Origin: Fasciolopsis buskii
Lineage: Eukaryota > Platyhelminthes > Trematoda > Plagiorchiida > Fasciolidae
Assembly (NCBI GenBank): GCA_008360955.1
Contig: LUCM01004946.1
Span: 1-64,000, forward strand
Reading direction: 5' to 3'
Length of the DNA stretch: 64,000 nucleotides
The notes below the pieces were generated by a model, which saw only the letters and a program-made list of their open reading frames with translations, had not been told where the DNA came from and did not search any database. The position numbers and the translations under genes are program-made. Within the stretch, counting starts at the first letter, position 1. Each line of letters opens with the position of its first letter. Below are positions 1-64,000 of this stretch, piece by piece.

Positions 1-28
1 TGTGTGTGTGTGTGTGTGTGTGTGTGTG
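1..28. repeat. (TG)n dinucleotide microsatellite
   Basis: The window opens inside an uninterrupted run of TG, 14 units visible. It probably continues to the left of the window. Confidence 0.95.
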
Positions 29-24858: not shown

Positions 24859-24971
24859 GTAAGACAAGCATTATCACCGCTGAGAATTTAATTGTGCAAT
24901 ACTTTAATAAAATTTCTGGCAGTTTTATCATCCCAGTGAGTTCCATTAAAGTAATACTTACCGACAACTGA

Positions 24972-33840: not shown

Positions 33841-36537
33841 AATTGTCATTAGTCTAATTGACAAAGACACGTAAATTGTTCAGACTATGGGAAAACAATT
33901 TTTTAACTGTCTTAATTGCTTACACAGAAATATTTGTACCAGCCGAACTATGATCAAGGCTCAGATTTACTCGTTTTTCATGTTAACGAATATTTTGACG
34001 AAACAGCCGGACTGAATTATAAGGAACATTGCGAGAAAGCTTGCCGAAACATTTTGACAGGGAATCGAAGCATGATCCGTTCCAATCCAAACGGTAAATA
34101 GAGTAGACAAACAAAAACTGTCGGGGAATGTTCAAAAAAAGAAGAAATAACAGAATAAAAAGGCTTTCCACAGGGAGACTTCGTTTCCTCCAGAATTGTT
34201 TAGATTAATCTAGGGTAAAGAATTGAAAATTGGGATAAATCGTAGTGGTCATTAATTTACATCTGATAATCACAGAATGATCAATTAACAGCAGCAAAAG
34301 TAGTTATAGCGTGACACAAGGAAACTGGGGAACATTGAGTTAGTGCGTTAGCCAGAAATCGCAAACTTTAGATGAAATGTGAATCTATAAAGTACTAGCA
34401 AATATATGGTTATGCTTTTCACAACCAAATTTATATATATTGTTGTGTTACATAAATACCGGTTGCTCCCTGATTAACGTGGTTTTACTTTTTCTTGGCA
34501 AAACTTGTGCTGCTGGGTTACAATTTACCATAATTGGTGTTTTGTGGGTCGAACATATCAGCACACTGGTTTACATCAGCATGACCGCTTATCTGAGTTA
34601 AAATTTTGAACCGGCAATCGTTTTTGCGTATGGTTGTCAAACAAATAATTTTCGTAGTGAACCTGTTCAATTGCGCTAATTCACGACCGAATTACTTGTG
34701 GATTATTGATTGCCTCGCTCTCAGAAGTTGCGAATTCGCATATTCATATATATATATTCTCTACTTGCATCTTTTTATTGCGATTTCTAATTTGTTGTAT
34801 ATATGAGTCATTTCTCATCATGATGACTGGTACGGTGCAGTCAAGTGGACACAGAACGGAATCCGAAAGTCATATGAAAACCAATATCCTCTCAACAATT
34901 TCATTTTCATACTACCTTAAACATTTCTGTAGCGCAGCAACATAAAATTCCCTTAGGCGACTATTCAGATTGTCAGTGGGTTAGTGAAACGTTCAACCAA
35001 TCAGTCGGTAAACAGGCGAGCAGAAGTTAACGGAGTGGAATAACTTGTGACAGTCACGGATCTGATTCGCTTGAAGCTGAATTGGTTGTCTTTTGTTAGT
35101 GCTTTTTTACCGACATTCTTTTTTGAGGAACCTTCAGAACGTTTCAAGAGGATAGCTATCGCTTCAGCTGTCGACGATTACTGCTTCACAATAAATTGAC
35201 CAAGCATAACTGGATAGATTTATTAGAGAATCAAACTTGTGGTCAGGCTTTTAAAGATTGTAGAGAAGTGGAGTTGTTTCGCCCCCTTATTTTTTAAATT
35301 AAAGCCAAATTAATGGGTGACTTTCACTACGTTTGGATAGTTGCCTCATAGTTCGACCTACACACTTAAGAGGTCGGCAACAGACCTTTATTCATGGAAT
35401 GCAGAATAATCTTGCATGCGGCTGTATCTGGTATCGGGGGAAAGCTGTTAAAGTTTTTCATTCCCGATTAGATATTTTTCATACGGTCCATGGTGTCTTG
35501 TGAAACAGGGTAAATTTATTTACTGATTATGATCGGGTGGAGGTCTTGGGGTTTTTTCATTTCAGTCAAACAGAGACGAACAACTTAATTGGTCAGTGTG
35601 AAATTTTCCCCTAAGAATAAAGAATCCAGTGGTTGGAAAATGATTCGCAAAATCCGTTGCTATCAGCAATGATGTCGGAAACAATCGCAGACTATCAAGT
35701 AAAATTGTGATCAGCCTTAAGAAGAGTTGATGCTGGCACCATCGGTTTGGGATGTCGTTTTGCTAACCATTTAACAACCGAGATTCTTTAATCCAATGTA
35801 TAAGACAGCATTTTTATGAATGTATTTATGCTCAATTTTGTATGCCGAGACAAACCAACTGTTTGGATGCAAAATTATCTAATAAATAATGTGGGCTTGT
35901 CTGCGGTTGGGTATTAGAATTTTATTTGAAATGAGGGATCAATACAGCTTTTCTTGGCTTAACGTATATGCAAAAAATAAACTTGTCATACTTCAAATTG
36001 GTTTTAGGCTTGTCTGTTTTGAAAAGCAAAGACAATCCCTGAAAAGCGTTTTTGTTTCCGCTGATAACTAAGTAATGCTGCAGTAAATGCATCCCCTGAA
36101 TGATTTTCTGAGGAACATATGCATTTTTTTCTCCCCATGTTAGGTCACGCTGCACAGGATATTGTGACCGATTTTTCATCCCTTCGCATTGCGTGAGATA
36201 ACAAACATGTGTAGCACACCAACTGTAAACTGACCTAAGCCATCCCAGATATCGTGTCAACAAATCGATACACAACGGTATGTCTGTTCGACAAGCAGAA
36301 GCAATTTCGCCTAACCAACACTAGTAACTGGAATAGGGATGCAAAAATTGAAGTAAACAAACTGTTATTCACGGTTTCGGAATACCATCATAAAGAACAT
36401 CATAAACGACCTTTGTGCAATTGGAATGCTCATTTTCATACCCTTAGTGCCAGTCGATAACATTTTCAGTTGGACAGTGCAAACAAAGATCTTTTGTTTA
36501 ATAATGATAAATTAGTTGTGGAAATTTAATGGTCAAC

Positions 36538-36656
36538 CTGAACAGCATGCTTGTTTGCCCAGTTCACTGTTACGGTTTATGCACATCGGCGATGGGCCGA
36601 GTTTTAGGTGACACAAATTCGAAGGGCAGTAGTTGTGGCCGAGAACTGCGATGTAT
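36538..36656 (-). CDS. Weak candidate Cys-rich exon (left-arm copy)
   Basis: On the minus strand a tract ending in TTTAACAG (acceptor, ending at 36657) precedes a 119-nt open segment followed by CAG|GTTGAC (donor at 36537). It encodes about 39 residues with spacing C-x4-C-x9-C-x11-CC and a locally higher G+C content. This resembles a disulfide-rich extracellular module but matches no family I can name. No neighbouring exon of compatible phase was found. The identical copy at 61185-61303 adds no evidence, because the arms are nearly identical everywhere. Confidence 0.25.
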
Positions 36657-39600
36657 CTGTTAAATATTGGGATGTGATTATCAAAAGTTTCACCATCAGA
36701 AAGAACGATTATCAACGGATTCGGAGGATTAAATCAATGCACCTTAGAAAGTCAGCCAATAAAACTTTTATTTGTTTGAATTCCGCGTCAATGCTTGGGT
36801 ATTCTATTTGGACGATATTGATCTTTTCACATTTTGCGCTTGCAGTCAAAGTCGTTGCTAATTCATCGTTAGGGATAATCAAGTTTTCATAACAATGCTT
36901 TTATAAGTTACCTCGAGAATCAATAACGGAGTCAGGAAAATTTTCCTAACAACAGTTTTCAAAATGCGCGAAAGGTAATATGGTGCAAATCGTATCTCAC
37001 TCTCATAGATTTAACAATTGGAATTTAGACGCACTTTCTATCTGGATTGCCGAAATGACAATTGCGGAAAAAACTGTTTGCATAGTTACCCTCGATTGAC
37101 TGACGTGATGGTCATGCAGGCTGCACCTTACTTTTTCTCTGTTAGGAATGCCACAATTCACACGATCGCTGGCCTAACGAATCAACTGTTTGCCCCATAC
37201 CGATTCAAAGGCTAAGGTGAACAAAAATGAGCAAGTCACATCTTCCAAGGTTTGAGGAAAAAACTGTGTAGGTAAGTTTGTACGGTTAGAGAATAGATTC
37301 TACGGACAGGTCAACATTCATTCGGCAATTTTACTTCGCGTTTTGTGGTGAACGCCCATGTAGGAGAAATTTAAAACACTCTCGATTTTCCTCCACGTTA
37401 GATTAAGGTCAAACGCACTTTCCACTGCAAAACCGTGATGAAATCCAATGCCTCAAAACATGAAAAAGTGAATGGGTCTAACGGCAATCTCTGAGTATAT
37501 GAAAATCCAAGTGGTTCAACTGAAACACATTTAGCTGTAGAATGATACTTTGTGGGGTATTCCTTAAACGTCCTCGCCATGTTGGTCGTTTGAAGGTTAA
37601 CATTTTGCCGAGACTGGGAGATGAATTTTACAAAATGCATCATTGTTTATTACAACTATTTTGAATTTTCAGGGGTCTGCTTACGCGAATGTTACACAAA
37701 TTCTGATAGTTACCTTGAAGATTTGGGCGTATTACATCTGTATGCAATCAATCGGATGAACAAGAATTGAAACGATAACAGTCTGACAATTACGGATTAG
37801 AATGATTGGTTTAATCTACTCCTTCTTCTTTGGTATCAGTTGGGTATCCTGGACCTATAACCCGTGTACTCACTGCCCAAAATTGCGCTTCTCAAAGTCG
37901 ATTGTATTCCTTGTAACCCGTAATCAGTTACTTTCCAACTGTTTGATCACACAATAACGGTATGATTTAATTGATTTGCCCGTGCAATAGAATGTGCATG
38001 GTTTATTTAGGCAGAAAGTAAGCTACTACAGTGGCTGATTACGAAACTGTTTTCTGTTGCTTTCTAGCATTGGACAAGAAAATAACTGGGATGGAAAATG
38101 GATGATTTAAAGAAATAACTTTATGCTCTGGAATCACGTTTCTCCGGTCGGCCCGTTGAATAGCATAACACATCACATGTCCGTGGATTTCTAACGTTCA
38201 TTCGGCGACGGATATCTTTTTGACTAGCAAATAATTTACAAAAAATATGCAGAAATGTTTCTAATTTGATTACATGTATCCCAAAAATTGTTGAATTTCA
38301 CTAAGTTTACCTGTTGCTGCTTCACGGGTAAGCATACGTAACGTAGTGCCCATGATTATTTCACACATATTAATACTGATGAGTAATACTAATAACTTTT
38401 ATTGAATACAAACCAAATGATGTTCGGACTGTATCCAAAAATTATCATTGCAGTAGCTTAGCTGTCACCATCTGATACCTCCTCGAAGCGCTGCATGGAG
38501 GGTAAAATTTTCTAGCAATTTATACTGATAAAATCTGAAGTCAGCTTGTTAGCAAAAACAGTGTTTATTACCTCAGCACACGGGATTTAAAACTGAAGAT
38601 CGGAAGGGGCATATAAGAAAAACCCAGTATCTTCCAGGCTGATTAAAACTCATGAGTGTAGTCAGTAAAATGCGTTTGTTTGGTTATAATAACGGAATTC
38701 ACCTGGGAAACGACAAGGTTTGCTTCGAAACGCGCAAAAGAAATTCCTCTATCGGAATCTGTTTAGGACATGTACATGTTCGTTTAACAGTATTAACTGT
38801 GCGACTGTATATGTGCCCTAAGTTTTCACAGCTGACATTTAGCTTCAAACTCTAGGTCCGTCCCTAAATTGGCGTTATTATAGCACCTCCAAATTGGTTA
38901 AAAGTTTAAAGCAACGGACGGTTCATCTCTCTTGGTTGTGAGAAATTTCCGGTTAGGTTTAATATTGACTGGCAACTGGACGTAGACTTGAAAGCATTAT
39001 TGCTTTTCTACAAAGACGGTTTAAGACCCGAGATTCATTAACGGTGTTTCTGAAGTGAAATTATGATGAACAACTCAAGGCTTTCTCTCTAATAATAGTG
39101 AAGGAGATAAAATATGCAGATTTAGTTGTTTCTCGATCGCGATTCATACAAATGGATAGTGAAATGTTACTGTTTTGCCGGAAAGCTAAGCATTCGGTTG
39201 TATTTTCTGAGTAAAAACATCTGCCGATAGTTACAACGATATACGTTAAATTACGTGAATCTAAGATCCAACAGATCGATAGGATCTAATCTCGTTAATT
39301 TCGAATGAACGAACAATATTATCTCGAAACAAAACCCTCGGTAATGCAAAAGCATAACTAAAATATTACATTCATGCAGTGTTAATTGGCAACAACTGTT
39401 TTTCTCAACAATTTCGTCTAAACTATTTAGAATTTCGGACAAAAACAGAAACAATGTTTTTCTAATTATTCTTCCTTTCTGGACTGACTTTCACGCTGAG
39501 TATTTTGAAACCACTGCTTGCTTGCAAAACAAACTTATGTTTCAAATCGGTACATATTTTTGCAATTCCGCAGTGGGTATTATCTGTTTTAATTACCTGT

Positions 39601-41534
39601 TCAGTTGCTTTGCTGATGCGCAAGAGAGAAAACATCGTGAGTTTTTCCGAAGCCCCTTAACAAGTGAGACTAAGGAAGTCACGAAAATACTACAGGGGCA
39701 CAGATGCAGTTTGCATTTCATTGTTCCCCACTGACCGTTGATCTGTTGAACGAGATCGAAAAAGCAGAATGTTCAACAGCAAAAAGGTGATCACCGCAAG
39801 CCAATCAGATAACACTGCGTGAAGTCGGGCGTCTGAAAATTGTGATCAGCAACTTTCTCAGTCATCGGCAGCCATGACGTGAAGTACAAAATTCTGCGGC
39901 ATACTCGATAACCCCTGTCTGATGTGGTTCTACTCATAGGACTGATTAATGTAATTAACCTAATGGGAATTCATTTGCCCACTGAAGGACGGGACATTCT
40001 TTCGTGATATGCTTCAAGGTTCGCAATACCGAATACAATCTCCTTACTTAGAGGTTAATCAATAATCGATCATCGGAAGCCGTCATCCGTTTGCCATTGC
40101 TCGACGTACTAATGATGAGCGAGGCCGAAATTTACTCTGAGTCTGATTTTACAATCAAATCTAATAACGATGTTTTCTTTGCATTTTGCTAGTAAAATTT
40201 CATTGTTCGAAATTTCGGGATCTCAATGCTTGCATGTGCAGTTATTGGCGCATGATCACCAACTGAGGTTTGCGTTTATCCTTCACGACCTTTATGGTCT
40301 CTTATTGATAAAAAGGCATTAGTCCTTGGCTGCGGAAAGCTGAACACAACAACGATGTTATTTATATTCTTTTCGGTTGGAAATTATGCTAACTATCACA
40401 CAGACAGTCTATGCTTCCATCACCTTAGAGTTAAAGGTTTTTGACCGTTATCCTTACTGAGTTCAATAAATTACACTGCTGATTGTTTATTTGTCCTGTG
40501 AAATTTAAGCAAATTATATATTCCCTCATTTTATTGTTTTTGCATTACCTAGATAGACGGTACTATGTATCCTTCGTTTACAGCAAATCCAATGATCTTT
40601 TACCTACCAGTTGTATTTAGCATGAAACAAAGTACTAAATCAAAAATCAAAACTTCTGACTCTTTAGACGACCTTTTTCAAGTTCATTTTGAGGTTTCCC
40701 ATAATATGTGGTAGTTTCCCTACTATTGGCTGGAAAGAAATTGAACTCAATCGCAAATTAGTTCAAGTTTTGTAGAGGTTATCATTTTATGGCAGGCTTA
40801 GAATGGAAAGTGCTCTTTTATTATGACGGTCTGGCACACGGTCATTCTCAACATGATTTGATTTTGCATACACTTCAGTTAATTTCTCTATGTAATACAA
40901 CAAACAACAAGCCGCAGACACTGCGATTGCAATTATTTTCTAAACTGCGTACGAACTGTTTCTGGTGATCGTTGCAAAACGTCCATCGAATTTAATGTTA
41001 TACATTTCTCTGAACTCATCGCCTATACGAGCGAATGCTAGGTGAGATTCAAAAAAAGCAAAATGGTTATTTCATTTCTGTTCTTGACCATATTTTGGCA
41101 AACCGGAAACCGTCTGATCAGTCGTCTGAGCCATCAAATACTCTTTTTCATAACCGTATTAAAACATGACATCCCAGGGATGTTTGTGTTTTTCTATATT
41201 TCATGAATAGGCTTACCATCTAAGTCCTTTTATGTATTTCACACGGAAAAATTGGAATTCAAGATCACAGTGTCATAATTACGATAACCTTCTTTTATGA
41301 CTGTTGAGGTGAATGCGAGCAAATGATCGGAATCCAATTTTGGACCAGGAACATGTAGTTATAAAGATCAGAACTGGTAACAATTTGGACAATTATTCAT
41401 GAAAGAAAGATTTTTGTATATCTGCAGCCAGTAAGATATAGATTTGCAAAACACCATGCAATATTTGTAATCGTATTTGTCCAAGGAGTCCATTTTACCG
41501 AAGATTTCGGGAATCCAAACTGAGAACATCGTAA

Positions 41535-42600
41535 ATGATCTCCTTGGATGCACGTTCACTAATGATCAATGCACATTCAACTGAAACAGTAAACTTCATC
41601 CGTGAAATTGTGTTGACGGGAGAAGAAAAAATCAAGTATCCTAAAAGACAGTTTGAGATAACTTGTTCTACTGCCTTTATTTGCGACACAGAGATGAAAT
41701 TGCCACGGGTTTTCACTAAAGATCTATTCTTGCTATTATTTCTCTAGGAAAGATAGAGCAAAATCGTTACGCAAAATCATTAGCCATGTCAACCGCTTCT
41801 ACGTGTATGCTGATGACATTCTTGTCTCCGATAAAACCACTTGGTTTTTATTGCACATCAGCTCAATGAAGTTGATCTTTCTACTAATTTCACCGGGAGA
41901 GCTTAGCAAATAAAACTGTTTTTCCTTTCAGAATGTTTAATTAACAAGCCGTTTTGTCCACTCCCTTCAAATAAAAGTGTAAGTATCAGTAGAGAGATGC
42001 TCACAGTTTGTATTCTTTTGGCAAAGTCATAATGTAATTTGTTGCTTTTAAGACAGGGACTGGGTGAATCTGGTCATCAGACACCCAAGGCGATCTCGCA
42101 CATCGAAATGACCCTGGTTACTAGGCACCCAGAGAGGAATATCAATCAGAACTCGGACAGACAAAAAATCCAGACATTTTGGGAAAAGAAAATTTTAATC
42201 AGAGACCAAATAAAAATAGAAGTCACGATCAAAGGCACCGGAAGAAGGGGCCTTAGCAGGATGTTCTGGATATCATCTGTAATTTAGTACCAGACCAAGG
42301 ACAAGCTCACCATTCTGAATTTACATTTGGTCACTTATCAATTCAAATGCGTCTGTGATGATGTATATCTGGATCTCACTACTAAGATGGTCTCAAAACG
42401 CCCCAGAAGCATCATTCACGCTGGTATCTGAAAAGAAGTGGTGAAGCCATGGTGAGTTTCATTGCAGAAACCGGTCACTCGGTTGGCATTCAGTCAGCCT
42501 TCGCAGCAATTTATCATCTTCCACAACGCACACGAAAAGGGGTTAGGCTTCGGCTCTCGAAAGCTTTGTGAGATGTCATCATTCGTCTTTGGTAAACCGA
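41535..42600 (+). mobile_element. Decayed Penelope-like retroelement with RT and GIY-YIG-type endonuclease (left arm)
   Basis: Several frames together follow a Penelope-like polymerase. The RT begins with MISLDARSL (family pattern MVSLDVxSLFT), followed by ETVNFIREIV. The central AMGSPLGP block is missing. The catalytic YADD is intact at 41806-41817 (YADDILV), followed by HQLNEVDLSTNFT. After a divergent linker come the endonuclease signatures: YQFKCVCDD at about 42334-42360, then ETGHSVGIQSAFAAIYHLP near 42464-42523 and a basic RTRKGVRLRL stretch. This is the expected order in PLEs that carry a C-terminal GIY-YIG nuclease, which makes the nick that primes insertion. Stops, frame changes and the lost block make it inactive. 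Minus-strand open frames here are antisense shadows. Confidence 0.78.
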
Positions 42601-44478
42601 ATTCCGTGGCCTAACCACGGTGAAACTACGCGTGAGGGTGACGATGACTCCACCTGTTCACCATCATGTGGTGAAGTTTAACTCAGTTACCTAATCAGTA
42701 AGCCAAAAATGAAACAGATTGATCGTCTTCTCTGTTCGTTACCGCAAGCTCTACCAAAGATAAAAAGAATGGACTGGCATGAGAGTAAAATTACCAGCAA
42801 GCATTTTTGCTTAAAACGTAATCTAAGATATAGGTTATTGGTGTCGTGGACCATCAAACTGATGAAATACTGTGTTTGTGAGAAGACATCCATGGTAGCG
42901 AATCAGTAGAAACCGCTTTTCGGAAGGAAAATGACTTCGCAGTTGCTATGCAACATCCCTGATCACTCAAAAGTTTGAAGTAACCAAAAATGTAACTTTT
43001 GGTTCGGAATTTATTACTGGCTAAATCTTACCAACCCACCTCTCCTTTTCAATCAGCTAATCGTCCCAGTGACTGAATCGCCTAATTTGACCTTAAACAT
43101 TGGGATATAACGGTATGCTTATTTATCTTTAATCCCAAAATTGTTTATTTGCAGTCGTTCGTTTCTGACAAATAGCATAAGCAATCCTGTGTTACATTAA
43201 CAGAACGCATACGAAATTGTGTTACCTGGACTTTTTCACGTGAGAATTTATTGATATGCGTGTCAAGTGAAAGTGGAAAAAGTATTTCTTCTCATTTCAT
43301 CATAGTTTTCACGTTCATCATTTCTAATATAATAGAAAGGTAAAAAAACTATCAAAATCATTTTATAAGAATAGAAAGATGCACAATCTACATTGGTGCA
43401 AACTTTAAATTTTGCAAGCTGATTCCCATTTCAAAAAACGATTGCAAAGTATTTTGACATCACTATGCTTGTAATACAATGGAGACCAAATGAGACAAAT
43501 AGCAGTGTTTGGACAATCGGAATTAAGTTGAAAATACCTGAGTAAATAAGGCGGAAGCAAAAGGCGATTTTCTGGCAATAAATGACGCTTTTCTTTCCAA
43601 TTCTCAATCATCATGGACGGATTAAAAATTAAACATTTAGAGCAGCATTCACGATCCTGTCTGGGCCAGTATTATTGGCTGATTTTCGTTGACAGACATT
43701 AGAGGCTAATGGATACAATGCGGATGAGGAGAAGCCGTTTTGTTCTGTCCACTGAGTAGCCTGACTCAGTCGGCCAGCAACACTTTTCCCCAGAAATCGA
43801 ACTACATTCGTCAGGCAAAAATGGTCTGATCACAGTCCGTTCGGGTAAATTAACAAAATTGGAGAGTAGCCCACTTGAGTTGTGATGCCAGCTATTTTGA
43901 TGCAATGTGTAACGCCGACGAAAAACGCAGCTAACCAAATGACATATCTTTTGACATATTATTGCCGTTGATTTACACATATTCAATCAAAATAGATTTA
44001 TTCGGCCTCCTTTTTGTTCTTATCTAAGTTGTGGTACTGAAATGTTTGCCAGAACTAGACGTTTATTGGTTTGAAACTAAGTCACATTGTTTTCTTTGGT
44101 AAATCACAATTCGGGTGTCCAAAACATGGGACCATTTATACTGATGCACGGATATCAACGCCAGAAACCAGAGAATAATTTAGGCCGCTGGGGTAAGTTT
44201 CATTGAAATGGGCACCCGCCAAATTAACTTTCAAGAAACAGTCCACAATGTACTCGTTGTTCCTTGTGAAATTGTTTTCGGAAGCTTCGATCTGTTACAC
44301 GTTATTTGCAGAAGTTCCTTCGTTCGGCCACTCACGCTTTCAAAGGTATTTATATCTGAACAATGTGAACACTAAAAACTTGTCAGAATCGGGAAAGTTA
44401 TCCGTGCCGTCTGATCAATTTTTCCTCCGGGGTGCTCTTTAGTGAAGTAATGCAGTAACAAAAACAATAGCAATAAAA

Positions 44479-44512
44479 ATAATAGTAATAATAATAATTA
44501 TAATAATAATAA
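44479..44512. repeat. (AAT)n microsatellite (left arm)
   Basis: Imperfect AAT/TAA tract inside an A-rich stretch. The mirrored tract at 53329-53362 has exactly the same length and the same interruptions. Confidence 0.9.
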
Positions 44513-45080
44513 CACTGAGCAGCAAGATTCATTCAAGCTGTTATAGCTGTGCGGGAAATGTTACTTCTTTGGATAAGCTGATTTAGCCCCCAGTGGCCTC
44601 AGAGGAAAAAAAAGATGGATTTGTGTAGGCAAAACCGTTTAAAACAGTTTTAAAAGAGAGTATATGAAAATCTTGTTTAATTTACATTACCGAAAGTCCG
44701 CAATCACCGTAGACTGTTATTCAGTTGGAGGGGGAACAACCATGCATTGCACGTTGTTCGTTTTTATTTAACCAGCTATCCAATCGATATACTACCTAAA
44801 TTTTGCATCATATTTAATAGAAACATGGTGACACGCTGCTGCCGAATACAAATACAACAGAGAAGACAAAAACAACAAGAAAACCAACTTTTTGCTTCAA
44901 CAGTAAATAGTTCGTGAGTCTTTGCTTTTGATGTTTGCAATGGGGCATGGTTTTAACGGACGATTCATTTCTTTCGATTCTGAGCAGTGCTTTTCAACGT
45001 CTCCAACAAACCTCATTTCTTCGGATCAAACCAATAGGGTGGAAACACTAACCAGTAAAACAGCCGAAGCTAACTGCACC

Positions 45081-45501
45081 ATTTCCCGCAGTATAGAGTG
45101 TCCGACCTACCAAAGGAGATGTAGAGTTGTTACCTCATTTTGGAGACAGCAGCCTGCACCCCAAAATAAGACGTTGCATCTCGAAATTGATCAGCACTAA
45201 CCGACTCGAGCAAGGCTTTTGATACTTCGGTGGTTGAATGGCGATAGTTACCGGACATGTTCTAACGGAGGAGGCCAGGCATCATAACCGTAAAGTGGAA
45301 CGTTGGGCGTTGTGCACTCATGGGGTGGCCGGATGTCACGATGGCTCCACAGGTGTTCCTGGCTGACGAGAGTTACTCTAGCTTTCCCAGTTCGTGAAGT
45401 GATCTCGCCAACATCTCGAACAGCAGTAATAACACTGTCGAGATACTCACAGCTATTGACTATCTTTCGCGAACCACCAAAGTGGGTGAGTGCCGGCACA
45501 T
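45081..45501 (-). mobile_element. RTE-like LINE remnant, C-terminal end of reverse transcriptase (left arm)
   Basis: On the minus strand the frame 45248-45499 and its continuation follow the end of trematode-type RTE polymerases: a tyrosine-leucine segment (CEYLDSV), then EITSRTGKARV (family EISxRIGKARxxFxxLxxLW), an HLWSHRDI block, GYDAWPPPLEHVR (family GxETWPLRxEDxRR), LSPFNHRS (family LxxFDHRCLRxI), ARVG and EVTTLHLLW.VGH (family LRWLGH). An in-frame stop follows EHVR and frames shift, so it is a fossil. The plus-strand frame 45303-45512 is antisense. It lies tail to head beside the CR1-like fragment, so the arm's inner end is a nest of old retroelements. Confidence 0.68.
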
Positions 45502-45974
45502 ACTATTTCTAGCCTTAAATAAGTGAGTTGTGATTTGGAGATCCAAAGCACAGTGAAACTGGATACTTTAACTGTCAAGCGGTACAAAAATTTCTGACTC
45601 GCATATACACTATCGCCTAGGAAAGCGGTAGTATAGTGTAATCCTAGACATATTATCTGTTCATGACAGGAGCTCAACTCCTTCGTCCAGCCGATCAGGA
45701 AAACGTGCTGCACAATATCATCTATGAAAAATGGGAAAAATGGCTATACAGGGCAGATATTCAGCACTCAACTAGCGATGCTGACGACAATATCTGGTCA
45801 TACACTCTAGCCTGACCTTGATTGTGATAGCATCATCCTCCGAGGACGACACTTCAGTCTCACGTATACAGTTCCCTGGCTAAAGATGTCATACAACAAA
45901 CAGATCGACAGAGGTAAAGGTTACTCGAACTTCCGAGGACATGAAGGCCACTTACCACCGGAGAGTGAGGAATG

Positions 45975-46365
45975 AATAGCCGCAACCCATGGTCTTTTCT
46001 ACTTCACAAACTGGAAACATTTGGTTGTCCGAAGTCCGTATTAACATGGCTGTCTGATTAATTTACAAATCCAACCCAGTGCACACGAATGGACGGTAAA
46101 ACTTCAAAACCGCTGATTAACAACTCAGGCTTGCTACAGAGTGCTAATCTTTCACCGTTTCTTTTCTCTACTCACATCAGCGACTTATCAACTAGCTCCC
46201 AATTGTCATCTGTTTAAGCATGTTGTTGATGTTACCTTCTCTCAAGCCGTTCCGAACAACGATAATTTTCAAAGGTTCTCCAACAACCTATCTTCTATTT
46301 ACGATTTATCTGCACCAGCTGGTTTAAATCTTAACATGTCTAAACGTTCCAAATGTCTGTTATCT
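45975..46365 (+). mobile_element. CR1/jockey-like LINE reverse transcriptase fragment, cut off at the arm edge (left arm)
   Basis: Plus-strand translation gives the middle of a non-LTR RT. LLHKLETFGCP is followed by a WLSD..TNPTQCT segment and SGLLQSANLSPFLF (family GVPQGSxLSPxLF). After a one-base frameshift comes HVVDVT in place of the catalytic YADD, then a region of the palm ending LNLNMSKRSKC. Loss of the Asp pair, stops and the frameshift make it dead. The homology ends exactly at the edge of the inverted repeat (46365). Past that point the sequence is unrelated to the rest of the RT, whereas the mirrored copy continues (50985-51866). This asymmetry marks the left arm as the truncated copy. 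Confidence 0.75.
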
Positions 46366-50760: not shown

Positions 50761-50984
50761 GGAGGTCCAACAACGCAGTTTGTCTAGTGTTGTATAGAGT
50801 TTTGCGTAAAAATATTGTCACATTTAATTCAAAATACGCGGTGGAAAATAAGTAACAGTTAACACTCAGCACCTTGCAAAAATGTAATAAAAACTCATTA
50901 AAGAATGATCTGAGTACATTATGGTAGGTTGCTCAGGAAGTCAGCTGAAACATGGTCATGAATTGGCAAAATACAAGCTAATTG

Positions 50985-51866
50985 TTACAGTGTGGATTCT
51001 ATAGATATTGATTCTAGAGGGCATGGGACGAAAAGCGGATGGCGTCGAAATATGAGAGCGGCACTTTGAAAGATCGTTATGCAGAGGATGCGTAGGGTCG
51101 GAGAGAATTTTGTGAGCAGATTTCTCACATGTTGGTAAGTGATGTTCGCATAGATTGAAGTCAGCTCACTTAGTGGTATGAAAGACAAATGGTCAATAAT
51201 TGATATCCCTGGTGAACACTTTTGGAGTATTTTCTAAGTAAACCTGAAACAGTAACAGGAGCACAGTAAAGAAGAATTGGAAAAACGTTGGTAAGCAAAT
51301 CGAAAGATAGTGCTTAGTTTCAACTTGGGGTGCCAAAGCCTCCTGGTTTGAAATGACTACTGTCGGGGATTCTTTGCACAGGTGGAAATGTGAGGAGTGC
51401 AGTTCCGAATTTTATCAATAGTTATTACTAGATATCTCACAGAATCAACCCTGGTAAGAGTTTCGAGTTGACAAGAGATAACATACATTTGGAACGTTTA
51501 GACATGTTAAGATTTAAACCAGCTGGTGCAGATAAATCGTAAATAGAAGATAGGTTGTTGGAGAACCTTTGAAAATTATCGTTGTTCGGAACGGCTTGAG
51601 AGAAGGTAACATCAACAACATGCTTAAACAGATGACAATTGGGAGCTAGTTGATAAGTCGCTGATGTGAGTAGAGAAAAGAAACGGTGAAAGATTAGCAC
51701 TCTGTAGCACGCCTGAGTTGTTAATCAGCGGTTTTGAAGTTTTACCGTCCATTCGTGTGCACTGGGTTGGATTTGTAAATTAATCAGACAGCCATGTTAA
51801 TACGGACTTCGGACAACCAAATGTTTCCAGTTTGTGAACTAGAAAAGACCATGGGTTGCGGCTATT
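50985..51866 (-). mobile_element. CR1/jockey-like LINE reverse transcriptase crossing the right arm edge into the spacer
   Basis: The right-arm copy of the RT described at 45975-46365, on the minus strand. It reads SGVLQSANLSPFLF, the same decayed HVVDVT in place of YADD, and SKRSKC. Unlike the left copy it then continues past the arm edge at 51476 into the spacer. There the frames give a thumb-region motif FPILLYCAPV (51254-51286; family ILPILLYCSPV), SGLLRKYSKS (family GLLxKD), and a C-terminal basic stretch RRHPLFVPCPLES ending in a stop near 50985. Frames shift and stops occur, so it is not active. Continuity of one RT homology across 51475/51476 shows that arm and spacer were joined here before the duplication. 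Confidence 0.72.
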
Positions 51867-52339
51867 CATTCCTCACTCTCCGGTGGTAAGTGGCCTTCAT
51901 GTCCTCGGAAGTTCGAGTAACCTTTACCTCTGTCGATCTGTTTGTTGTATGACATCTTTAGCCAGGGAACTGTATACGTGAGACTGAAGTGTCGTCCTCG
52001 GAGGATGATGCTATCACAATCAAGGTCAGGCTAGAGTGTATGACCAGATATTGTCGTCAGCATCGCTAGTTGAGTGCTGAATATCTGCCCTGTATAGCCA
52101 TTTTTCCCATTTTTCATAGATGATATTGTGCAGCACGTTTTCCTGATCGGCTGGACGAAGGAGTTGAGCTCCTGTCATGAACAGACAATATGTCTAGGAT
52201 TACACTATACTACCGCTTTCCTAGGCGATAGTGTATATGCGAGTCAGAAATTTTTGTACCGCTTGACAGTTAAAGTATCCAGTTTCACTGTGCTTTGGAT
52301 CTCCAAATCACAACTCACTTATTTAAGGCTAGAAATAGT

Positions 52340-52760
52340 ATGTGCCGGCACTCACCCACTTTGGTGGTTCGCGAAAGATAGTCAATAGCTGTGAGTATCT
52401 CGACAGTGTTATTACTGCTGTTCGAGATGTTGGCGAGATCACTTCACGAACTGGGAAAGCTAGAGTAACTCTCGTCAGCCAGGAACACCTGTGGAGCCAT
52501 CGTGACATCCGGCCACCCCATGAGTGCACAACGCCCAACGTTCCACTTTACGGTTATGATGCCTGGCCTCCTCCGTTAGAACATGTCCGGTAACTATCGC
52601 CATTCAACCACCGAAGTATCAAAAGCCTTGCTCGAGTCGGTTAGTGCTGATCAATTTCGAGATGCAACGTCTTATTTTGGGGTGCAGGCTGCTGTCTCCA
52701 AAATGAGGTAACAACTCTACATCTCCTTTGGTAGGTCGGACACTCTATACTGCGGGAAAT
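52340..52760 (+). mobile_element. RTE-like LINE remnant, C-terminal end of reverse transcriptase (right arm)
   Basis: Mirror copy of 45081-45501, here on the plus strand and identical in sequence. It shows the same segments (CEYLDSV, EITSRTGKARV at 52435-52467, HLWSHRDI, GYDAWP, LSPFNHRS, EVTTLHLLW) and the same stops. Confidence 0.68.
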
Positions 52761-53328
52761 GGTGCAGTTAGCTTCGGCTGTTTTACTGGTTAGTGTTTCC
52801 ACCCTATTGGTTTGATCCGAAGAAATGAGGTTTGTTGGAGACGTTGAAAAGCACTGCTCAGAATCGAAAGAAATGAATCGTCCGTTAAAACCATGCCCCA
52901 TTGCAAACATCAAAAGCAAAGACTCACGAACTATTTACTGTTGAAGCAAAAAGTTGGTTTTCTTGTTGTTTTTGTCTTCTCTGTTGTATTTGTATTCGGC
53001 AGCAGCGTGTCACCATGTTTCTATTAAATATGATGCAAAATTTAGGTAGTATATCGATTGGATAGCTGGTTAAATAAAAACGAACAACGTGCAATGCATG
53101 GTTGTTCCCCCTCCAACTGAATAACAGTCTACGGTGATTGCGGACTTTCGGTAATGTAAATTAAACAAGATTTTCATATACTCTCTTTTAAAACTGTTTT
53201 AAACGGTTTTGCCTACACAAATCCATCTTTTTTTTCCTCTGAGGCCACTGGGGGCTAAATCAGCTTATCCAAAGAAGTAACATTTCCCGCACAGCTATAA
53301 CAGCTTGAATGAATCTTGCTGCTCAGTG

Positions 53329-53362
53329 TTATTATTATTATAATTATTATTATTACTATTAT
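53329..53362. repeat. (AAT)n microsatellite (right arm)
   Basis: Reverse complement of 44479-44512, with identical length and interruptions. Confidence 0.9.
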
Positions 53363-55240
53363 TTTTATTGCTATTGTTTTTGTTACTGCATTACTTCACT
53401 AAAGAGCACCCCGGAGGAAAAATTGATCAGACGGCACGGATAACTTTCCCGATTCTGACAAGTTTTTAGTGTTCACATTGTTCAGATATAAATACCTTTG
53501 AAAGCGTGAGTGGCCGAACGAAGGAACTTCTGCAAATAACGTGTAACAGATCGAAGCTTCCGAAAACAATTTCACAAGGAACAACGAGTACATTGTGGAC
53601 TGTTTCTTGAAAGTTAATTTGGCGGGTGCCCATTTCAATGAAACTTACCCCAGCGGCCTAAATTATTCTCTGGTTTCTGGCGTTGATATCCGTGCATCAG
53701 TATAAATGGTCCCATGTTTTGGACACCCGAATTGTGATTTACCAAAGAAAACAATGTGACTTAGTTTCAAACCAATAAACGTCTAGTTCTGGCAAACATT
53801 TCAGTACCACAACTTAGATAAGAACAAAAAGGAGGCCGAATAAATCTATTTTGATTGAATATGTGTAAATCAACGGCAATAATATGTCAAAAGATATGTC
53901 ATTTGGTTAGCTGCGTTTTTCGTCGGCGTTACACATTGCATCAAAATAGCTGGCATCACAACTCAAGTGGGCTACTCTCCAATTTTGTTAATTTACCCGA
54001 ACGGACTGTGATCAGACCATTTTTGCCTGACGAATGTAGTTCGATTTCTGGGGAAAAGTGTTGCTGGCCGACTGAGTCAGGCTACTCAGTGGACAGAACA
54101 AAACGGCTTCTCCTCATCCGCATTGTATCCATTAGCCTCTAATGTCTGTCAACGAAAATCAGCCAATAATACTGGCCCAGACAGGATCGTGAATGCTGCT
54201 CTAAATGTTTAATTTTTAATCCGTCCATGATGATTGAGAATTGGAAAGAAAAGCGTCATTTATTGCCAGAAAATCGCCTTTTGCTTCCGCCTTATTTACT
54301 CAGGTATTTTCAACTTAATTCCGATTGTCCAAACACTGCTATTTGTCTCATTTGGTCTCCATTGTATTACAAGCATAGTGATGTCAAAATACTTTGCAAT
54401 CGTTTTTTGAAATGGGAATCAGCTTGCAAAATTTAAAGTTTGCACCAATGTAGATTGTGCATCTTTCTATTCTTATAAAATGATTTTGATAGTTTTTTTA
54501 CCTTTCTATTATATTAGAAATGATGAACGTGAAAACTATGATGAAATGAGAAGAAATACTTTTTCCACTTTCACTTGACACGCATATCAATAAATTCTCA
54601 CGTGAAAAAGTCCAGGTAACACAATTTCGTATGCGTTCTGTTAATGTAACACAGGATTGCTTATGCTATTTGTCAGAAACGAACGACTGCAAATAAACAA
54701 TTTTGGGATTAAAGATAAATAAGCATACCGTTATATCCCAATGTTTAAGGTCAAATTAGGCGATTCAGTCACTGGGACGATTAGCTGATTGAAAAGGAGA
54801 GGTGGGTTGGTAAGATTTAGCCAGTAATAAATTCCGAACCAAAAGTTACATTTTTGGTTACTTCAAACTTTTGAGTGATCAGGGATGTTGCATAGCAACT
54901 GCGAAGTCATTTTCCTTCCGAAAAGCGGTTTCTACTGATTCGCTACCATGGATGTCTTCTCACAAACACAGTATTTCATCAGTTTGATGGTCCACGACAC
55001 CAATAACCTATATCTTAGATTACGTTTTAAGCAAAAATGCTTGCTGGTAATTTTACTCTCATGCCAGTCCATTCTTTTTATCTTTGGTAGAGCTTGCGGT
55101 AACGAACAGAGAAGACGATCAATCTGTTTCATTTTTGGCTTACTGATTAGGTAACTGAGTTAAACTTCACCACATGATGGTGAACAGGTGGAGTCATCGT
55201 CACCCTCACGCGTAGTTTCACCGTGGTTAGGCCACGGAAT

Positions 55241-56306
55241 TCGGTTTACCAAAGACGAATGATGACATCTCACAAAGCTTTCGAGAGCCGAAGCCTAACC
55301 CCTTTTCGTGTGCGTTGTGGAAGATGATAAATTGCTGCGAAGGCTGACTGAATGCCAACCGAGTGACCGGTTTCTGCAATGAAACTCACCATGGCTTCAC
55401 CACTTCTTTTCAGATACCAGCGTGAATGATGCTTCTGGGGCGTTTTGAGACCATCTTAGTAGTGAGATCCAGATATACATCATCACAGACGCATTTGAAT
55501 TGATAAGTGACCAAATGTAAATTCAGAATGGTGAGCTTGTCCTTGGTCTGGTACTAAATTACAGATGATATCCAGAACATCCTGCTAAGGCCCCTTCTTC
55601 CGGTGCCTTTGATCGTGACTTCTATTTTTATTTGGTCTCTGATTAAAATTTTCTTTTCCCAAAATGTCTGGATTTTTTGTCTGTCCGAGTTCTGATTGAT
55701 ATTCCTCTCTGGGTGCCTAGTAACCAGGGTCATTTCGATGTGCGAGATCGCCTTGGGTGTCTGATGACCAGATTCACCCAGTCCCTGTCTTAAAAGCAAC
55801 AAATTACATTATGACTTTGCCAAAAGAATACAAACTGTGAGCATCTCTCTACTGATACTTACACTTTTATTTGAAGGGAGTGGACAAAACGGCTTGTTAA
55901 TTAAACATTCTGAAAGGAAAAACAGTTTTATTTGCTAAGCTCTCCCGGTGAAATTAGTAGAAAGATCAACTTCATTGAGCTGATGTGCAATAAAAACCAA
56001 GTGGTTTTATCGGAGACAAGAATGTCATCAGCATACACGTAGAAGCGGTTGACATGGCTAATGATTTTGCGTAACGATTTTGCTCTATCTTTCCTAGAGA
56101 AATAATAGCAAGAATAGATCTTTAGTGAAAACCCGTGGCAATTTCATCTCTGTGTCGCAAATAAAGGCAGTAGAACAAGTTATCTCAAACTGTCTTTTAG
56201 GATACTTGATTTTTTCTTCTCCCGTCAACACAATTTCACGGATGAAGTTTACTGTTTCAGTTGAATGTGCATTGATCATTAGTGAACGTGCATCCAAGGA
56301 GATCAT
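55241..56306 (-). mobile_element. Decayed Penelope-like retroelement with RT and GIY-YIG-type endonuclease (right arm)
   Basis: Mirror copy of 41535-42600, here on the minus strand. No base differs. The disabling lesions (missing central RT block, stops between RT and endonuclease) are the same, so the element was already dead when the inverted repeat formed. Confidence 0.78.
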
Positions 56307-59300
56307 TTACGATGTTCTCAGTTTGGATTCCCGAAATCTTCGGTAAAATGGACTCCTTGGACAAATACGATTACAAATATTGCATGGTGTTTTGCAAATC
56401 TATATCTTACTGGCTGCAGATATACAAAAATCTTTCTTTCATGAATAATTGTCCAAATTGTTACCAGTTCTGATCTTTATAACTACATGTTCCTGGTCCA
56501 AAATTGGATTCCGATCATTTGCTCGCATTCACCTCAACAGTCATAAAAGAAGGTTATCGTAATTATGACACTGTGATCTTGAATTCCAATTTTTCCGTGT
56601 GAAATACATAAAAGGACTTAGATGGTAAGCCTATTCATGAAATATAGAAAAACACAAACATCCCTGGGATGTCATGTTTTAATACGGTTATGAAAAAGAG
56701 TATTTGATGGCTCAGACGACTGATCAGACGGTTTCCGGTTTGCCAAAATATGGTCAAGAACAGAAATGAAATAACCATTTTGCTTTTTTTGAATCTCACC
56801 TAGCATTCGCTCGTATAGGCGATGAGTTCAGAGAAATGTATAACATTAAATTCGATGGACGTTTTGCAACGATCACCAGAAACAGTTCGTACGCAGTTTA
56901 GAAAATAATTGCAATCGCAGTGTCTGCGGCTTGTTGTTTGTTGTATTACATAGAGAAATTAACTGAAGTGTATGCAAAATCAAATCATGTTGAGAATGAC
57001 CATGTGCCAGACCGTCATAATAAAAGAGCACTTTCCATTCTAAGCCTGCCATAAAATGATAACCTCTACAAAACTTGAACTAATTTGCGATTGAGTTCAA
57101 TTTCTTTCCAGCCAATAGTAGGGAAACTACCACATATTATGGGAAACCTCAAAATGAACTTGAAAAAGGTCGTCTAAAGAGTCAGAAGTTTTGATTTTTG
57201 ATTTAGTACTTTGTTTCATGCTAAATACAACTGGTAGGTAAAAGATCATTGGATTTGCTGTAAACGAAGGATACATAGTACCGTCTATCTAGGTAATGCA
57301 AAAACAATAAAATGAGGGAATATATAATTTGCTTAAATTTCACAGGACAAATAAACAATCAGCAGTGTAATTTATTGAACTCAGTAAGGATAACGGTCAA
57401 AAACCTTTAACTCTAAGGTGATGGAAGCATAGACTGTCTGTGTGATAGTTAGCATAATTTCCAACCGAAAAGAATATAAATAACATCGTTGTTGTGTTCA
57501 GCTTTCCGCAGCCAAGGACTAATGCCTTTTTATCAATAAGAGACCATAAAGGTCGTGAAGGATAAACGCAAACCTCAGTTGGTGATCATGCGCCAATAAC
57601 TGCACATGCAAGCATTGAGATCCCGAAATTTCGAACAATGAAATTTTACTAGCAAAATGCAAAGAAAACATCGTTATTAGATTTGATTGTAAAATCAGAC
57701 TCAGAGTAAATTTCGGCCTCGCTCATCATTAGTACGTCGAGCAATGGCAAACGGATGACGGCTTCCGATGATCGATTATTGATTAACCTCTAAGTAAGGA
57801 GATTGTATTCGGTATTGCGAACCTTGAAGCATATCACGAAAGAATGTCCCGTCCTTCAGTGGGCAAATGAATTCCCATTAGGTTAATTACATTAATCAGT
57901 CCTATGAGTAGAACCACATCAGACAGGGGTTATCGAGTATGCCGCAGAATTTTGTACTTCACGTCATGGCTGCCGATGACTGAGAAAGTTGCTGATCACA
58001 ATTTTCAGACGCCCGACTTCACGCAGTGTTATCTGATTGGCTTGCGGTGATCACCTTTTTGCTGTTGAACATTCTGCTTTTTCGATCTCGTTCAACAGAT
58101 CAACGGTCAGTGGGGAACAATGAAATGCAAACTGCATCTGTGCCCCTGTAGTATTTTCGTGACTTCCTTAGTCTCACTTGTTAAGGGGCTTCGGAAAAAC
58201 TCACGATGTTTTCTCTCTTGCGCATCAGCAAAGCAACTGAACAGGTAATTAAAACAGATAATACCCACTGCGGAATTGCAAAAATATGTACCGATTTGAA
58301 ACATAAGTTTGTTTTGCAAGCAAGCAGTGGTTTCAAAATACTCAGCGTGAAAGTCAGTCCAGAAAGGAAGAATAATTAGAAAAACATTGTTTCTGTTTTT
58401 GTCCGAAATTCTAAATAGTTTAGACGAAATTGTTGAGAAAAACAGTTGTTGCCAATTAACACTGCATGAATGTAATATTTTAGTTATGCTTTTGCATTAC
58501 CGAGGGTTTTGTTTCGAGATAATATTGTTCGTTCATTCGAAATTAACGAGATTAGATCCTATCGATCTGTTGGATCTTAGATTCACGTAATTTAACGTAT
58601 ATCGTTGTAACTATCGGCAGATGTTTTTACTCAGAAAATACAACCGAATGCTTAGCTTTCCGGCAAAACAGTAACATTTCACTATCCATTTGTATGAATC
58701 GCGATCGAGAAACAACTAAATCTGCATATTTTATCTCCTTCACTATTATTAGAGAGAAAGCCTTGAGTTGTTCATCATAATTTCACTTCAGAAACACCGT
58801 TAATGAATCTCGGGTCTTAAACCGTCTTTGTAGAAAAGCAATAATGCTTTCAAGTCTACGTCCAGTTGCCAGTCAATATTAAACCTAACCGGAAATTTCT
58901 CACAACCAAGAGAGATGAACCGTCCGTTGCTTTAAACTTTTAACCAATTTGGAGGTGCTATAATAACGCCAATTTAGGGACGGACCTAGAGTTTGAAGCT
59001 AAATGTCAGCTGTGAAAACTTAGGGCACATATACAGTCGCACAGTTAATACTGTTAAACGAACATGTACATGTCCTAAACAGATTCCGATAGAGGAATTT
59101 CTTTTGCGCGTTTCGAAGCAAACCTTGTCGTTTCCCAGGTGAATTCCGTTATTATAACCAAACAAACGCATTTTACTGACTACACTCATGAGTTTTAATC
59201 AGCCTGGAAGATACTGGGTTTTTCTTATATGCCCCTTCCGATCTTCAGTTTTAAATCCCGTGTGCTGAGGTAATAAACACTGTTTTTGCTAACAAGCTGA

Positions 59301-61184
59301 CTTCAGATTTTATCAGTATAAATTGCTAGAAAATTTTACCCTCCATGCAGCGCTTCGAGGAGGTATCAGATGGTGACAGCTAAGCTACTGCAATGATAAT
59401 TTTTGGATACAGTCCGAACATCATTTGGTTTGTATTCAATAAAAGTTATTAGTATTACTCATCAGTATTAATATGTGTGAAATAATCATGGGCACTACGT
59501 TACGTATGCTTACCCGTGAAGCAGCAACAGGTAAACTTAGTGAAATTCAACAATTTTTGGGATACATGTAATCAAATTAGAAACATTTCTGCATATTTTT
59601 TGTAAATTATTTGCTAGTCAAAAAGATATCCGTCGCCGAATGAACGTTAGAAATCCACGGACATGTGATGTGTTATGCTATTCAACGGGCCGACCGGAGA
59701 AACGTGATTCCAGAGCATAAAGTTATTTCTTTAAATCATCCATTTTCCATCCCAGTTATTTTCTTGTCCAATGCTAGAAAGCAACAGAAAACAGTTTCGT
59801 AATCAGCCACTGTAGTAGCTTACTTTCTGCCTAAATAAACCATGCACATTCTATTGCACGGGCAAATCAATTAAATCATACCGTTATTGTGTGATCAAAC
59901 AGTTGGAAAGTAACTGATTACGGGTTACAAGGAATACAATCGACTTTGAGAAGCGCAATTTTGGGCAGTGAGTACACGGGTTATAGGTCCAGGATACCCA
60001 ACTGATACCAAAGAAGAAGGAGTAGATTAAACCAATCATTCTAATCCGTAATTGTCAGACTGTTATCGTTTCAATTCTTGTTCATCCGATTGATTGCATA
60101 CAGATGTAATACGCCCAAATCTTCAAGGTAACTATCAGAATTTGTGTAACATTCGCGTAAGCAGACCCCTGAAAATTCAAAATAGTTGTAATAAACAATG
60201 ATGCATTTTGTAAAATTCATCTCCCAGTCTCGGCAAAATGTTAACCTTCAAACGACCAACATGGCGAGGACGTTTAAGGAATACCCCACAAAGTATCATT
60301 CTACAGCTAAATGTGTTTCAGTTGAACCACTTGGATTTTCATATACTCAGAGATTGCCGTTAGACCCATTCACTTTTTCATGTTTTGAGGCATTGGATTT
60401 CATCACGGTTTTGCAGTGGAAAGTGCGTTTGACCTTAATCTAACGTGGAGGAAAATCGAGAGTGTTTTAAATTTCTCCTACATGGGCGTTCACCACAAAA
60501 CGCGAAGTAAAATTGCCGAATGAATGTTGACCTGTCCGTAGAATCTATTCTCTAACCGTACAAACTTACCTACACAGTTTTTTCCTCAAACCTTGGAAGA
60601 TGTGACTTGCTCATTTTTGTTCACCTTAGCCTTTGAATCGGTATGGGGCAAACAGTTGATTCGTTAGGCCAGCGATCGTGTGAATTGTGGCATTCCTAAC
60701 AGAGAAAAAGTAAGGTGCAGCCTGCATGACCATCACGTCAGTCAATCGAGGGTAACTATGCAAACAGTTTTTTCCGCAATTGTCATTTCGGCAATCCAGA
60801 TAGAAAGTGCGTCTAAATTCCAATTGTTAAATCTATGAGAGTGAGATACGATTTGCACCATATTACCTTTCGCGCATTTTGAAAACTGTTGTTAGGAAAA
60901 TTTTCCTGACTCCGTTATTGATTCTCGAGGTAACTTATAAAAGCATTGTTATGAAAACTTGATTATCCCTAACGATGAATTAGCAACGACTTTGACTGCA
61001 AGCGCAAAATGTGAAAAGATCAATATCGTCCAAATAGAATACCCAAGCATTGACGCGGAATTCAAACAAATAAAAGTTTTATTGGCTGACTTTCTAAGGT
61101 GCATTGATTTAATCCTCCGAATCCGTTGATAATCGTTCTTTCTGATGGTGAAACTTTTGATAATCACATCCCAATATTTAACAG

Positions 61185-61303
61185 ATACATCGCAGTTCTC
61201 GGCCACAACTACTGCCCTTCGAATTTGTGTCACCTAAAACTCGGCCCATCGCCGATGTGCATAAACCGTAACAGTGAACTGGGCAAACAAGCATGCTGTT
61301 CAG
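61185..61303 (+). CDS. Weak candidate Cys-rich exon (right-arm copy)
   Basis: Mirror copy of 36538-36656, identical. A second Cys-containing plus-strand open frame (61566-61919, with WCATHVCYLTQC after a CAG) lies 260 bp downstream, but its phase does not match a direct splice from this exon. Both may be chance frames. Confidence 0.25.
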
Positions 61304-64000
61304 GTTGACCATTAAATTTCCACAACTAATTTATCATTATTAAACAAAAGATCTTTGTTTGCACTGTCCAACTGAAAATGTTATCGACTGGCACTAAGGG
61401 TATGAAAATGAGCATTCCAATTGCACAAAGGTCGTTTATGATGTTCTTTATGATGGTATTCCGAAACCGTGAATAACAGTTTGTTTACTTCAATTTTTGC
61501 ATCCCTATTCCAGTTACTAGTGTTGGTTAGGCGAAATTGCTTCTGCTTGTCGAACAGACATACCGTTGTGTATCGATTTGTTGACACGATATCTGGGATG
61601 GCTTAGGTCAGTTTACAGTTGGTGTGCTACACATGTTTGTTATCTCACGCAATGCGAAGGGATGAAAAATCGGTCACAATATCCTGTGCAGCGTGACCTA
61701 ACATGGGGAGAAAAAAATGCATATGTTCCTCAGAAAATCATTCAGGGGATGCATTTACTGCAGCATTACTTAGTTATCAGCGGAAACAAAAACGCTTTTC
61801 AGGGATTGTCTTTGCTTTTCAAAACAGACAAGCCTAAAACCAATTTGAAGTATGACAAGTTTATTTTTTGCATATACGTTAAGCCAAGAAAAGCTGTATT
61901 GATCCCTCATTTCAAATAAAATTCTAATACCCAACCGCAGACAAGCCCACATTATTTATTAGATAATTTTGCATCCAAACAGTTGGTTTGTCTCGGCATA
62001 CAAAATTGAGCATAAATACATTCATAAAAATGCTGTCTTATACATTGGATTAAAGAATCTCGGTTGTTAAATGGTTAGCAAAACGACATCCCAAACCGAT
62101 GGTGCCAGCATCAACTCTTCTTAAGGCTGATCACAATTTTACTTGATAGTCTGCGATTGTTTCCGACATCATTGCTGATAGCAACGGATTTTGCGAATCA
62201 TTTTCCAACCACTGGATTCTTTATTCTTAGGGGAAAATTTCACACTGACCAATTAAGTTGTTCGTCTCTGTTTGACTGAAATGAAAAAACCCCAAGACCT
62301 CCACCCGATCATAATCAGTAAATAAATTTACCCTGTTTCACAAGACACCATGGACCGTATGAAAAATATCTAATCGGGAATGAAAAACTTTAACAGCTTT
62401 CCCCCGATACCAGATACAGCCGCATGCAAGATTATTCTGCATTCCATGAATAAAGGTCTGTTGCCGACCTCTTAAGTGTGTAGGTCGAACTATGAGGCAA
62501 CTATCCAAACGTAGTGAAAGTCACCCATTAATTTGGCTTTAATTTAAAAAATAAGGGGGCGAAACAACTCCACTTCTCTACAATCTTTAAAAGCCTGACC
62601 ACAAGTTTGATTCTCTAATAAATCTATCCAGTTATGCTTGGTCAATTTATTGTGAAGCAGTAATCGTCGACAGCTGAAGCGATAGCTATCCTCTTGAAAC
62701 GTTCTGAAGGTTCCTCAAAAAAGAATGTCGGTAAAAAAGCACTAACAAAAGACAACCAATTCAGCTTCAAGCGAATCAGATCCGTGACTGTCACAAGTTA
62801 TTCCACTCCGTTAACTTCTGCTCGCCTGTTTACCGACTGATTGGTTGAACGTTTCACTAACCCACTGACAATCTGAATAGTCGCCTAAGGGAATTTTATG
62901 TTGCTGCGCTACAGAAATGTTTAAGGTAGTATGAAAATGAAATTGTTGAGAGGATATTGGTTTTCATATGACTTTCGGATTCCGTTCTGTGTCCACTTGA
63001 CTGCACCGTACCAGTCATCATGATGAGAAATGACTCATATATACAACAAATTAGAAATCGCAATAAAAAGATGCAAGTAGAGAATATATATATATGAATA
63101 TGCGAATTCGCAACTTCTGAGAGCGAGGCAATCAATAATCCACAAGTAATTCGGTCGTGAATTAGCGCAATTGAACAGGTTCACTACGAAAATTATTTGT
63201 TTGACAACCATACGCAAAAACGATTGCCGGTTCAAAATTTTAACTCAGATAAGCGGTCATGCTGATGTAAACCAGTGTGCTGATATGTTCGACCCACAAA
63301 ACACCAATTATGGTAAATTGTAACCCAGCAGCACAAGTTTTGCCAAGAAAAAGTAAAACCACGTTAATCAGGGAGCAACCGGTATTTATGTAACACAACA
63401 ATATATATAAATTTGGTTGTGAAAAGCATAACCATATATTTGCTAGTACTTTATAGATTCACATTTCATCTAAAGTTTGCGATTTCTGGCTAACGCACTA
63501 ACTCAATGTTCCCCAGTTTCCTTGTGTCACGCTATAACTACTTTTGCTGCTGTTAATTGATCATTCTGTGATTATCAGATGTAAATTAATGACCACTACG
63601 ATTTATCCCAATTTTCAATTCTTTACCCTAGATTAATCTAAACAATTCTGGAGGAAACGAAGTCTCCCTGTGGAAAGCCTTTTTATTCTGTTATTTCTTC
63701 TTTTTTTGAACATTCCCCGACAGTTTTTGTTTGTCTACTCTATTTACCGTTTGGATTGGAACGGATCATGCTTCGATTCCCTGTCAAAATGTTTCGGCAA
63801 GCTTTCTCGCAATGTTCCTTATAATTCAGTCCGGCTGTTTCGTCAAAATATTCGTTAACATGAAAAACGAGTAAATCTGAGCCTTGATCATAGTTCGGCT
63901 GGTACAAATATTTCTGTGTAAGCAATTAAGACAGTTAAAAAATTGTTTTCCCATAGTCTGAACAATTTACGTGTCTTTGTCAATTAGACTAATGACAATT

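Follow-up and report, generated by a model that had tools for sequence, protein, structure and literature searches.

A near-identical inverted repeat with arms of at least 12.5 kb in a Fasciolopsis buskii contig: a candidate inverted duplication weighed against assembly artefacts

The 64,000 nucleotides of Fasciolopsis buskii DNA analyzed here (positions 1 to 64,000 of contig LUCM01004946.1, assembly GCA_008360955.1; hereafter the window) raise the question of whether the nearly perfect inverted repeat that reaches their last base belongs to the chromosome or was created by the assembly. BLASTN comparison of the window with itself, together with a base-by-base walk in which every position x was set against position 97841-x, revealed that 33841-46365 pairs with 64000-51476 over 12,525 bp at 99.960% identity, with five mismatches and no gaps. 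Both approaches thus reproduced the preliminary description of this DNA, which had reported an inverted repeat with five substitutions, no insertion or deletion (indel) and a 5.1-kb spacer. All five mismatches are substitutions, located in left-arm coordinates at 40839, 45655, 46002, 46131 and 46357. Complementarity between the arms ends abruptly at 46365/51476, and the 5,110-bp spacer (46366-51475) is found once in the window; its ends add 0 bp of inverted identity beyond the arm ends, a figure that follows from the definition of the arms, which would already include any bases that the two sides had in common beforehand. The locus therefore shows the long, highly similar reverse-complement arms around a spacer, single-copy within the window, that define a near-identical inverted repeat. 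This is not a chance feature, because the next-best self-match in the window under permissive BLASTN settings covers only 143 bp at 65% identity. The last base of the window determines where the arms end on the outside (33841 and 64000); their length is accordingly no less than 12,525 bp, in keeping with the wording “at least 12.5 kb” of the preliminary description; the arms are possibly longer, since 33840 would pair with 64001, outside the window. The GC (guanine plus cytosine) fraction is 0.406 in the spacer, 0.385 in the arm and 0.387 in the left flank.

33841 to 46365, plus strand: left arm, 12,525 bp, 5 mismatches and 0 gaps against 64000-51476; its outer end is set by the window edge.
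46366 to 51475, no strand: spacer, 5,110 bp, present once in the window.
51476 to 64000, minus strand: right arm, which reaches the last base of the window.

The few differences between the arms are distributed unevenly. Their distances from the inner junction are 9, 235, 364, 711 and 5,527 bp, and divergence is therefore not uniform along the arms, as four of the five lie no more than 711 bp from that junction. The probability of finding at least four of five differences inside the inner 711 bp is 4.96e-5 (9e-5 if either end of the arm is allowed), and a looser scan, in which the cluster may lie at any place along the arm, yields P = 0.003. Expressed as rates, the inner 711 bp carry 5.6e-3 differences per bp and the remaining arm 8.5e-5; if the inner rate held throughout, the remaining arm should show 66 differences, against the one observed.

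45655 to 46357, no strand: cluster of four of the five arm differences (45655, 46002, 46131 and 46357; mates 52186, 51839, 51710 and 51484), all substitutions.

Three processes may have produced this cluster: gene conversion acting on the outer part of the arms, assembly and polishing with reads whose arm of origin is recognizable only close to the unique spacer, or mutation at the breakpoint. Residual divergence sits beside the spacer, which is what we ourselves would expect of a gene-converting palindrome, yet read mixing and breakpoint mutation predict the same. The preliminary description had offered a recent duplication, a gene-converted palindrome or an artefact as explanations; the clustering speaks against a plain, evenly diverging young duplication, whereas the window sequence alone does not separate gene conversion from assembly or polishing. 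The kind of difference is informative in another respect. Residual long-read errors are mostly indels, and five substitutions with no indel look more like real variants than like such errors.

The sequence at the inner ends of the arms offers a means of asking which of the two junctions is new. From their predicted translation, the arms appear to terminate inside a decayed reverse transcriptase of a long interspersed nuclear element (LINE). A composite reading of this copy matches one protein (P0001), on the arm side only, with an E-value of 9.8e-20 and 52% identity over 109 amino acids, and a tblastn search with P0001 returned 51854-51627 and 45987-46214 with an E-value of 1.2e-20 each. P0001 is itself a reverse-transcriptase fragment, which matches RVT_1 with an E-value of 1.4e-4, under the Pfam cut-off of 29.6 bits. 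When the minus strand was read by eye, reverse-transcriptase-like sequence ran from the right arm into the spacer, from 51475 to about 51221; at the left junction, the same kind of reading gives way to unrelated sequence. Because the LINE reading by eye is intact across the right junction and broken at the left one, the right junction would be ancestral and the left one (46365/46366) looks new.

51476 to 51854, minus strand: arm-side part of the decayed LINE-type reverse-transcriptase copy, similar to P0001 and mirrored at 45987-46365 (plus strand).
51221 to 51475, minus strand: stretch of the spacer into which this LINE copy is proposed to continue, reading ...VDSVRYLVITIDKIRNCTPHIS..., ...LLYCAPVTVSGL... 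(by eye only).
46365 to 46366, no strand: left inner junction, which interrupts the LINE reverse-transcriptase copy; proposed derived (new) junction, from a six-frame reading by eye.
51475 to 51476, no strand: right inner junction, across which the LINE reading appears to run; proposed ancestral junction, by eye.

Further searches with this element returned nothing on the spacer side. Pfam gave no family for the LINE reading, whether as single frames (E<=10), as the composite (E<=1) or as stitched pieces (E<=10), and a PDB search gave no match for the composite or for P0001. The spacer-side piece alone had no protein match at E<=10, and a longer LINE query matched none of 351 candidate proteins. 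A CR1-type piece used as a yardstick did not find the LINE site when compared with the 64-kb window; its best matches fell elsewhere, with chance-like scores. The only locus returned by scans of viral contigs (L001) was judged a chance match, as it lies on a virus-like contig that the composite does not match (best tblastn E-value of 5). At 52640-52580 on the minus strand (mirrored in the left arm), some 0.8 kb upstream of the LINE sequence, we also observed a short reverse-transcriptase-like string, SSKAFDT, that may be part of the same or of another decayed element.

Comparison with P0001 also allowed us to polarize two of the arm differences. At 46131/51710, the right arm retains the V of P0001 (SGV) and the left arm has L, while at 46002/51839 it is the left arm that retains the L of P0001 (LLHKL) and the right arm that has V. 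The polarity thus differs between the two sites, and one change seems to have occurred in each arm. Such mixed polarity fits two evolving copies or two alleles; it is less easily reconciled with errors or breakpoint mutations that affect a new copy only.

On the basis of these observations, we favor a genuine inverted segmental duplication in the chromosome, with one new junction and arms that were later homogenized, to which we assign a probability of about 0.5. The sharp junctions, the substitutions without indels, their clustering, their mixed polarity, the size of the spacer and the low difference between the arms all favor it. A single new junction, proposed to be the left one at 46365/46366, would have formed when the sequence lying rightward of 51476 was copied in inverted orientation and attached to the far end of the 5.1-kb single-copy stretch, possibly by fold-back or by asymmetric sister-chromatid repair of a broken end, and the right junction would be the old, unbroken arrangement. 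Beyond approximately 0.7 kb from the spacer, the arms would then have been held nearly identical, with gene conversion between them as the simplest cause, whereas the 0.7 kb closest to the non-homologous spacer would have retained its differences. A more specific version seems rather unlikely to us: the repeat would be an invertebrate palindrome, on a sex chromosome or in an asexual lineage, whose arms convert each other often enough to stay uniform, except in the innermost 0.7 kb, which would escape conversion and so record how far it effectively reaches beside a spacer. Several points weigh against a genuine, homogenized duplication. Polishing accounts equally well for the clustering of differences if reads find an anchor only close to the unique spacer; no statistical support exists on the spacer side for the LINE continuity by which the junctions are dated; and the polarity is thin, as it comes from two sites and one outgroup that is 52% identical. 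There is also no recognizable gene in the arm to explain its conservation. Finally, no perfect di-, tri- or tetranucleotide repeat of at least 14 bp exists in the window apart from (TG)14 at positions 1-28, and because a random cut is unlikely to land on it, base 1 may be a contig end, which suggests, as a hint only, a fragmented draft.

An assembly product of one kind or another accordingly has to be reckoned with, and we consider its chances to be somewhat short of even. The form of it that we find possible, though unlikely, combines two haplotypes, in which a single locus was entered twice, as head-to-head copies connected by the spacer. It would probably have arisen from a 5.1-kb stretch heterozygous for an inversion: the two ends of this stretch would abut the same sequence in different haplotypes, so that the assembler walked in and back out; single-nucleotide polymorphisms (SNPs) would survive only near the junctions where reads anchor, and the deeper arms would be polished to one consensus. 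Exactly the observed pattern is predicted, that is, substitutions clustered near the junction and near-identity beyond, and the start of the window at its only perfect simple repeat is a further hint of a fragmented draft. The preliminary description had argued that haplotypes joined head to head would show more SNPs and some indels, an argument that does not hold in general: the 0.148 SNP per kb given for Folsomia candida in the available text of PMC5490193 corresponds to about 2 SNPs in 12.5 kb. On the other hand, the two-haplotype explanation requires a real heterozygous inversion, or some other shared join, in addition to a wrong walk. Suspicion of this sort is not always borne out either, as the authors of PMC12448946, in the portion available, judged their own palindromes in Botryllus to be real after depth checks.

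We regard as quite unlikely that one chimeric long read, running through the arm, the spacer and then the complementary arm, was built into the contig and that polishing equalized the arms. Such a fold-back read would be expected to leave one derived junction, and the accessible part of PMC12870357 puts fold-back reads at ~0.55-0.6% of Oxford Nanopore Technologies genomic reads, with one example in which ~2 kb lie between the segments, so that a 5.1-kb spacer alone does not rule out an artefact of this type. Against this explanation, the same text describes PacBio HiFi data as virtually without fold-backs. Arms derived from one molecule should also carry no real substitutions, and leftover errors should include indels, whereas we observed five substitutions and no indel; moreover, at 46002/51839 it is the right arm, and not the supposed artefact copy, that looks changed relative to P0001. 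Substitutions without indels and mixed polarity thus speak for real copies or alleles rather than for one chimeric read, although the evidence in the window does not tell copies from alleles. A plain young inverted duplication that never underwent conversion, its few differences stemming from error-prone repair at the breakpoint during formation, appears highly improbable to us. Replication-based rearrangements are error-prone near breakpoints, and the differences do cluster at the junction, one of them 9 bp away; yet mutations of this origin should all sit in the new, left copy, and one of the two polarized sites points to the right arm.

We also surveyed the coding and structural content of the window. 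No transfer RNA was found in it, no Rfam family matched it at gathering thresholds, and it contains no start-to-stop open reading frame (ORF) of at least 150 amino acids. Among ten selected ORFs, none matched a Pfam family at E<=0.01, and six-frame Pfam scans at the same threshold, with stops written as X, returned no family for 33841-48840 and 46420-51400, i.e. for the left arm and the spacer. Three-frame Pfam scans of the minus strand covered 1-15000 and 18000-32999, and the plus strand of 1-33840 was covered by the selected ORFs only; the right arm, nearly identical to the left, was covered in small part. The only recognized coding sequence in the parts scanned is a PDZ-like exon at approximately 4530-4655 on the minus strand, with a Pfam E-value of 3.5e-4 and 21.3 bits, below the cut-off of 23.2, and with 5wou_A, a PDZ domain of Drosophila lap4/Scribble, as its best PDB match (E-value of 4.8e-4). 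At 2316-2831, also on the minus strand, lies a proline-rich open stretch of 171 amino acids, the longest stop-to-stop frame listed, without a Pfam match; it may belong, as another exon, to the gene that contains the PDZ-like exon. The CpG ratio is 0.89, and taken by themselves these features would suggest an animal, probably invertebrate, nuclear genome. An inverted pair of 143 bp and 65% identity, at 25326-25467 and 26690-26554, is perhaps an old repeat or a foldback element.

Either outcome would have consequences beyond this locus. If the structure is real, it would be a large and very similar palindrome without a recognized gene, and would help to distinguish selection that protects genes from conversion that simply follows from the physical presence of inverted arms; the sharp change at ~0.7 kb would then measure how near to the spacer conversion reaches. 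If it is a product of assembly, it would show that arm identity and the lack of indels do not prove a palindrome to be real, and that arm differences clustered beside a unique spacer are a cheap warning sign in draft genomes.

The repeat has the layout of fold-back artefact reads as given in the available text of PMC12870357 (an arm, an optional spacer and the inverted arm), but those are single raw reads, whereas the structure described here is assembled and indel-free, with clustered substitutions. Palindromes have been reported in the parthenogenetic invertebrates Folsomia candida (11) and Adineta vaga (17), and their dependence on the assembly method has been questioned, according to the accessible parts of PMC5490193, PMC7953838 and PMC5916493. 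Like our repeat, these are inverted duplications in invertebrate assemblies, for some of which assembly error is suspected; they are, however, recognized by blocks of collinear genes whose synonymous divergence varies widely, in contrast with the 0.04% difference and lack of a recognized gene here. That difference is similar to the ~0.02% maintained through gene conversion between the arms of the human Y palindrome P6 in the available portion of PMC3723533, and arm identity lies above the 99.9% expected of gene-converting palindromes. P6 shares with the repeat its long inverted arms, more than 99.9% identical, and its non-duplicated spacer; unlike for P6, there is no sex chromosome, recurrence, allelic data or recognizable gene to go with the repeat, and conversion between its arms is a proposal. 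The inverted duplications of human patients in the available text of PMC3907307 are terminal, megabase-sized and accompanied by an adjacent deletion, whereas the outer ends of our repeat lie beyond the window. In that text, inverted microhomology of 2-8 bp was found in 13 of 21 sequenced human fold-back inverted duplications, and all 21 contain a single-copy spacer (766-70,466 bp, median 3,428), a range into which the spacer of 5,110 bp falls. The resemblance extends to the overall architecture, namely two inverted copies, a single-copy spacer of a few kilobases and one new junction, proposed here by eye.

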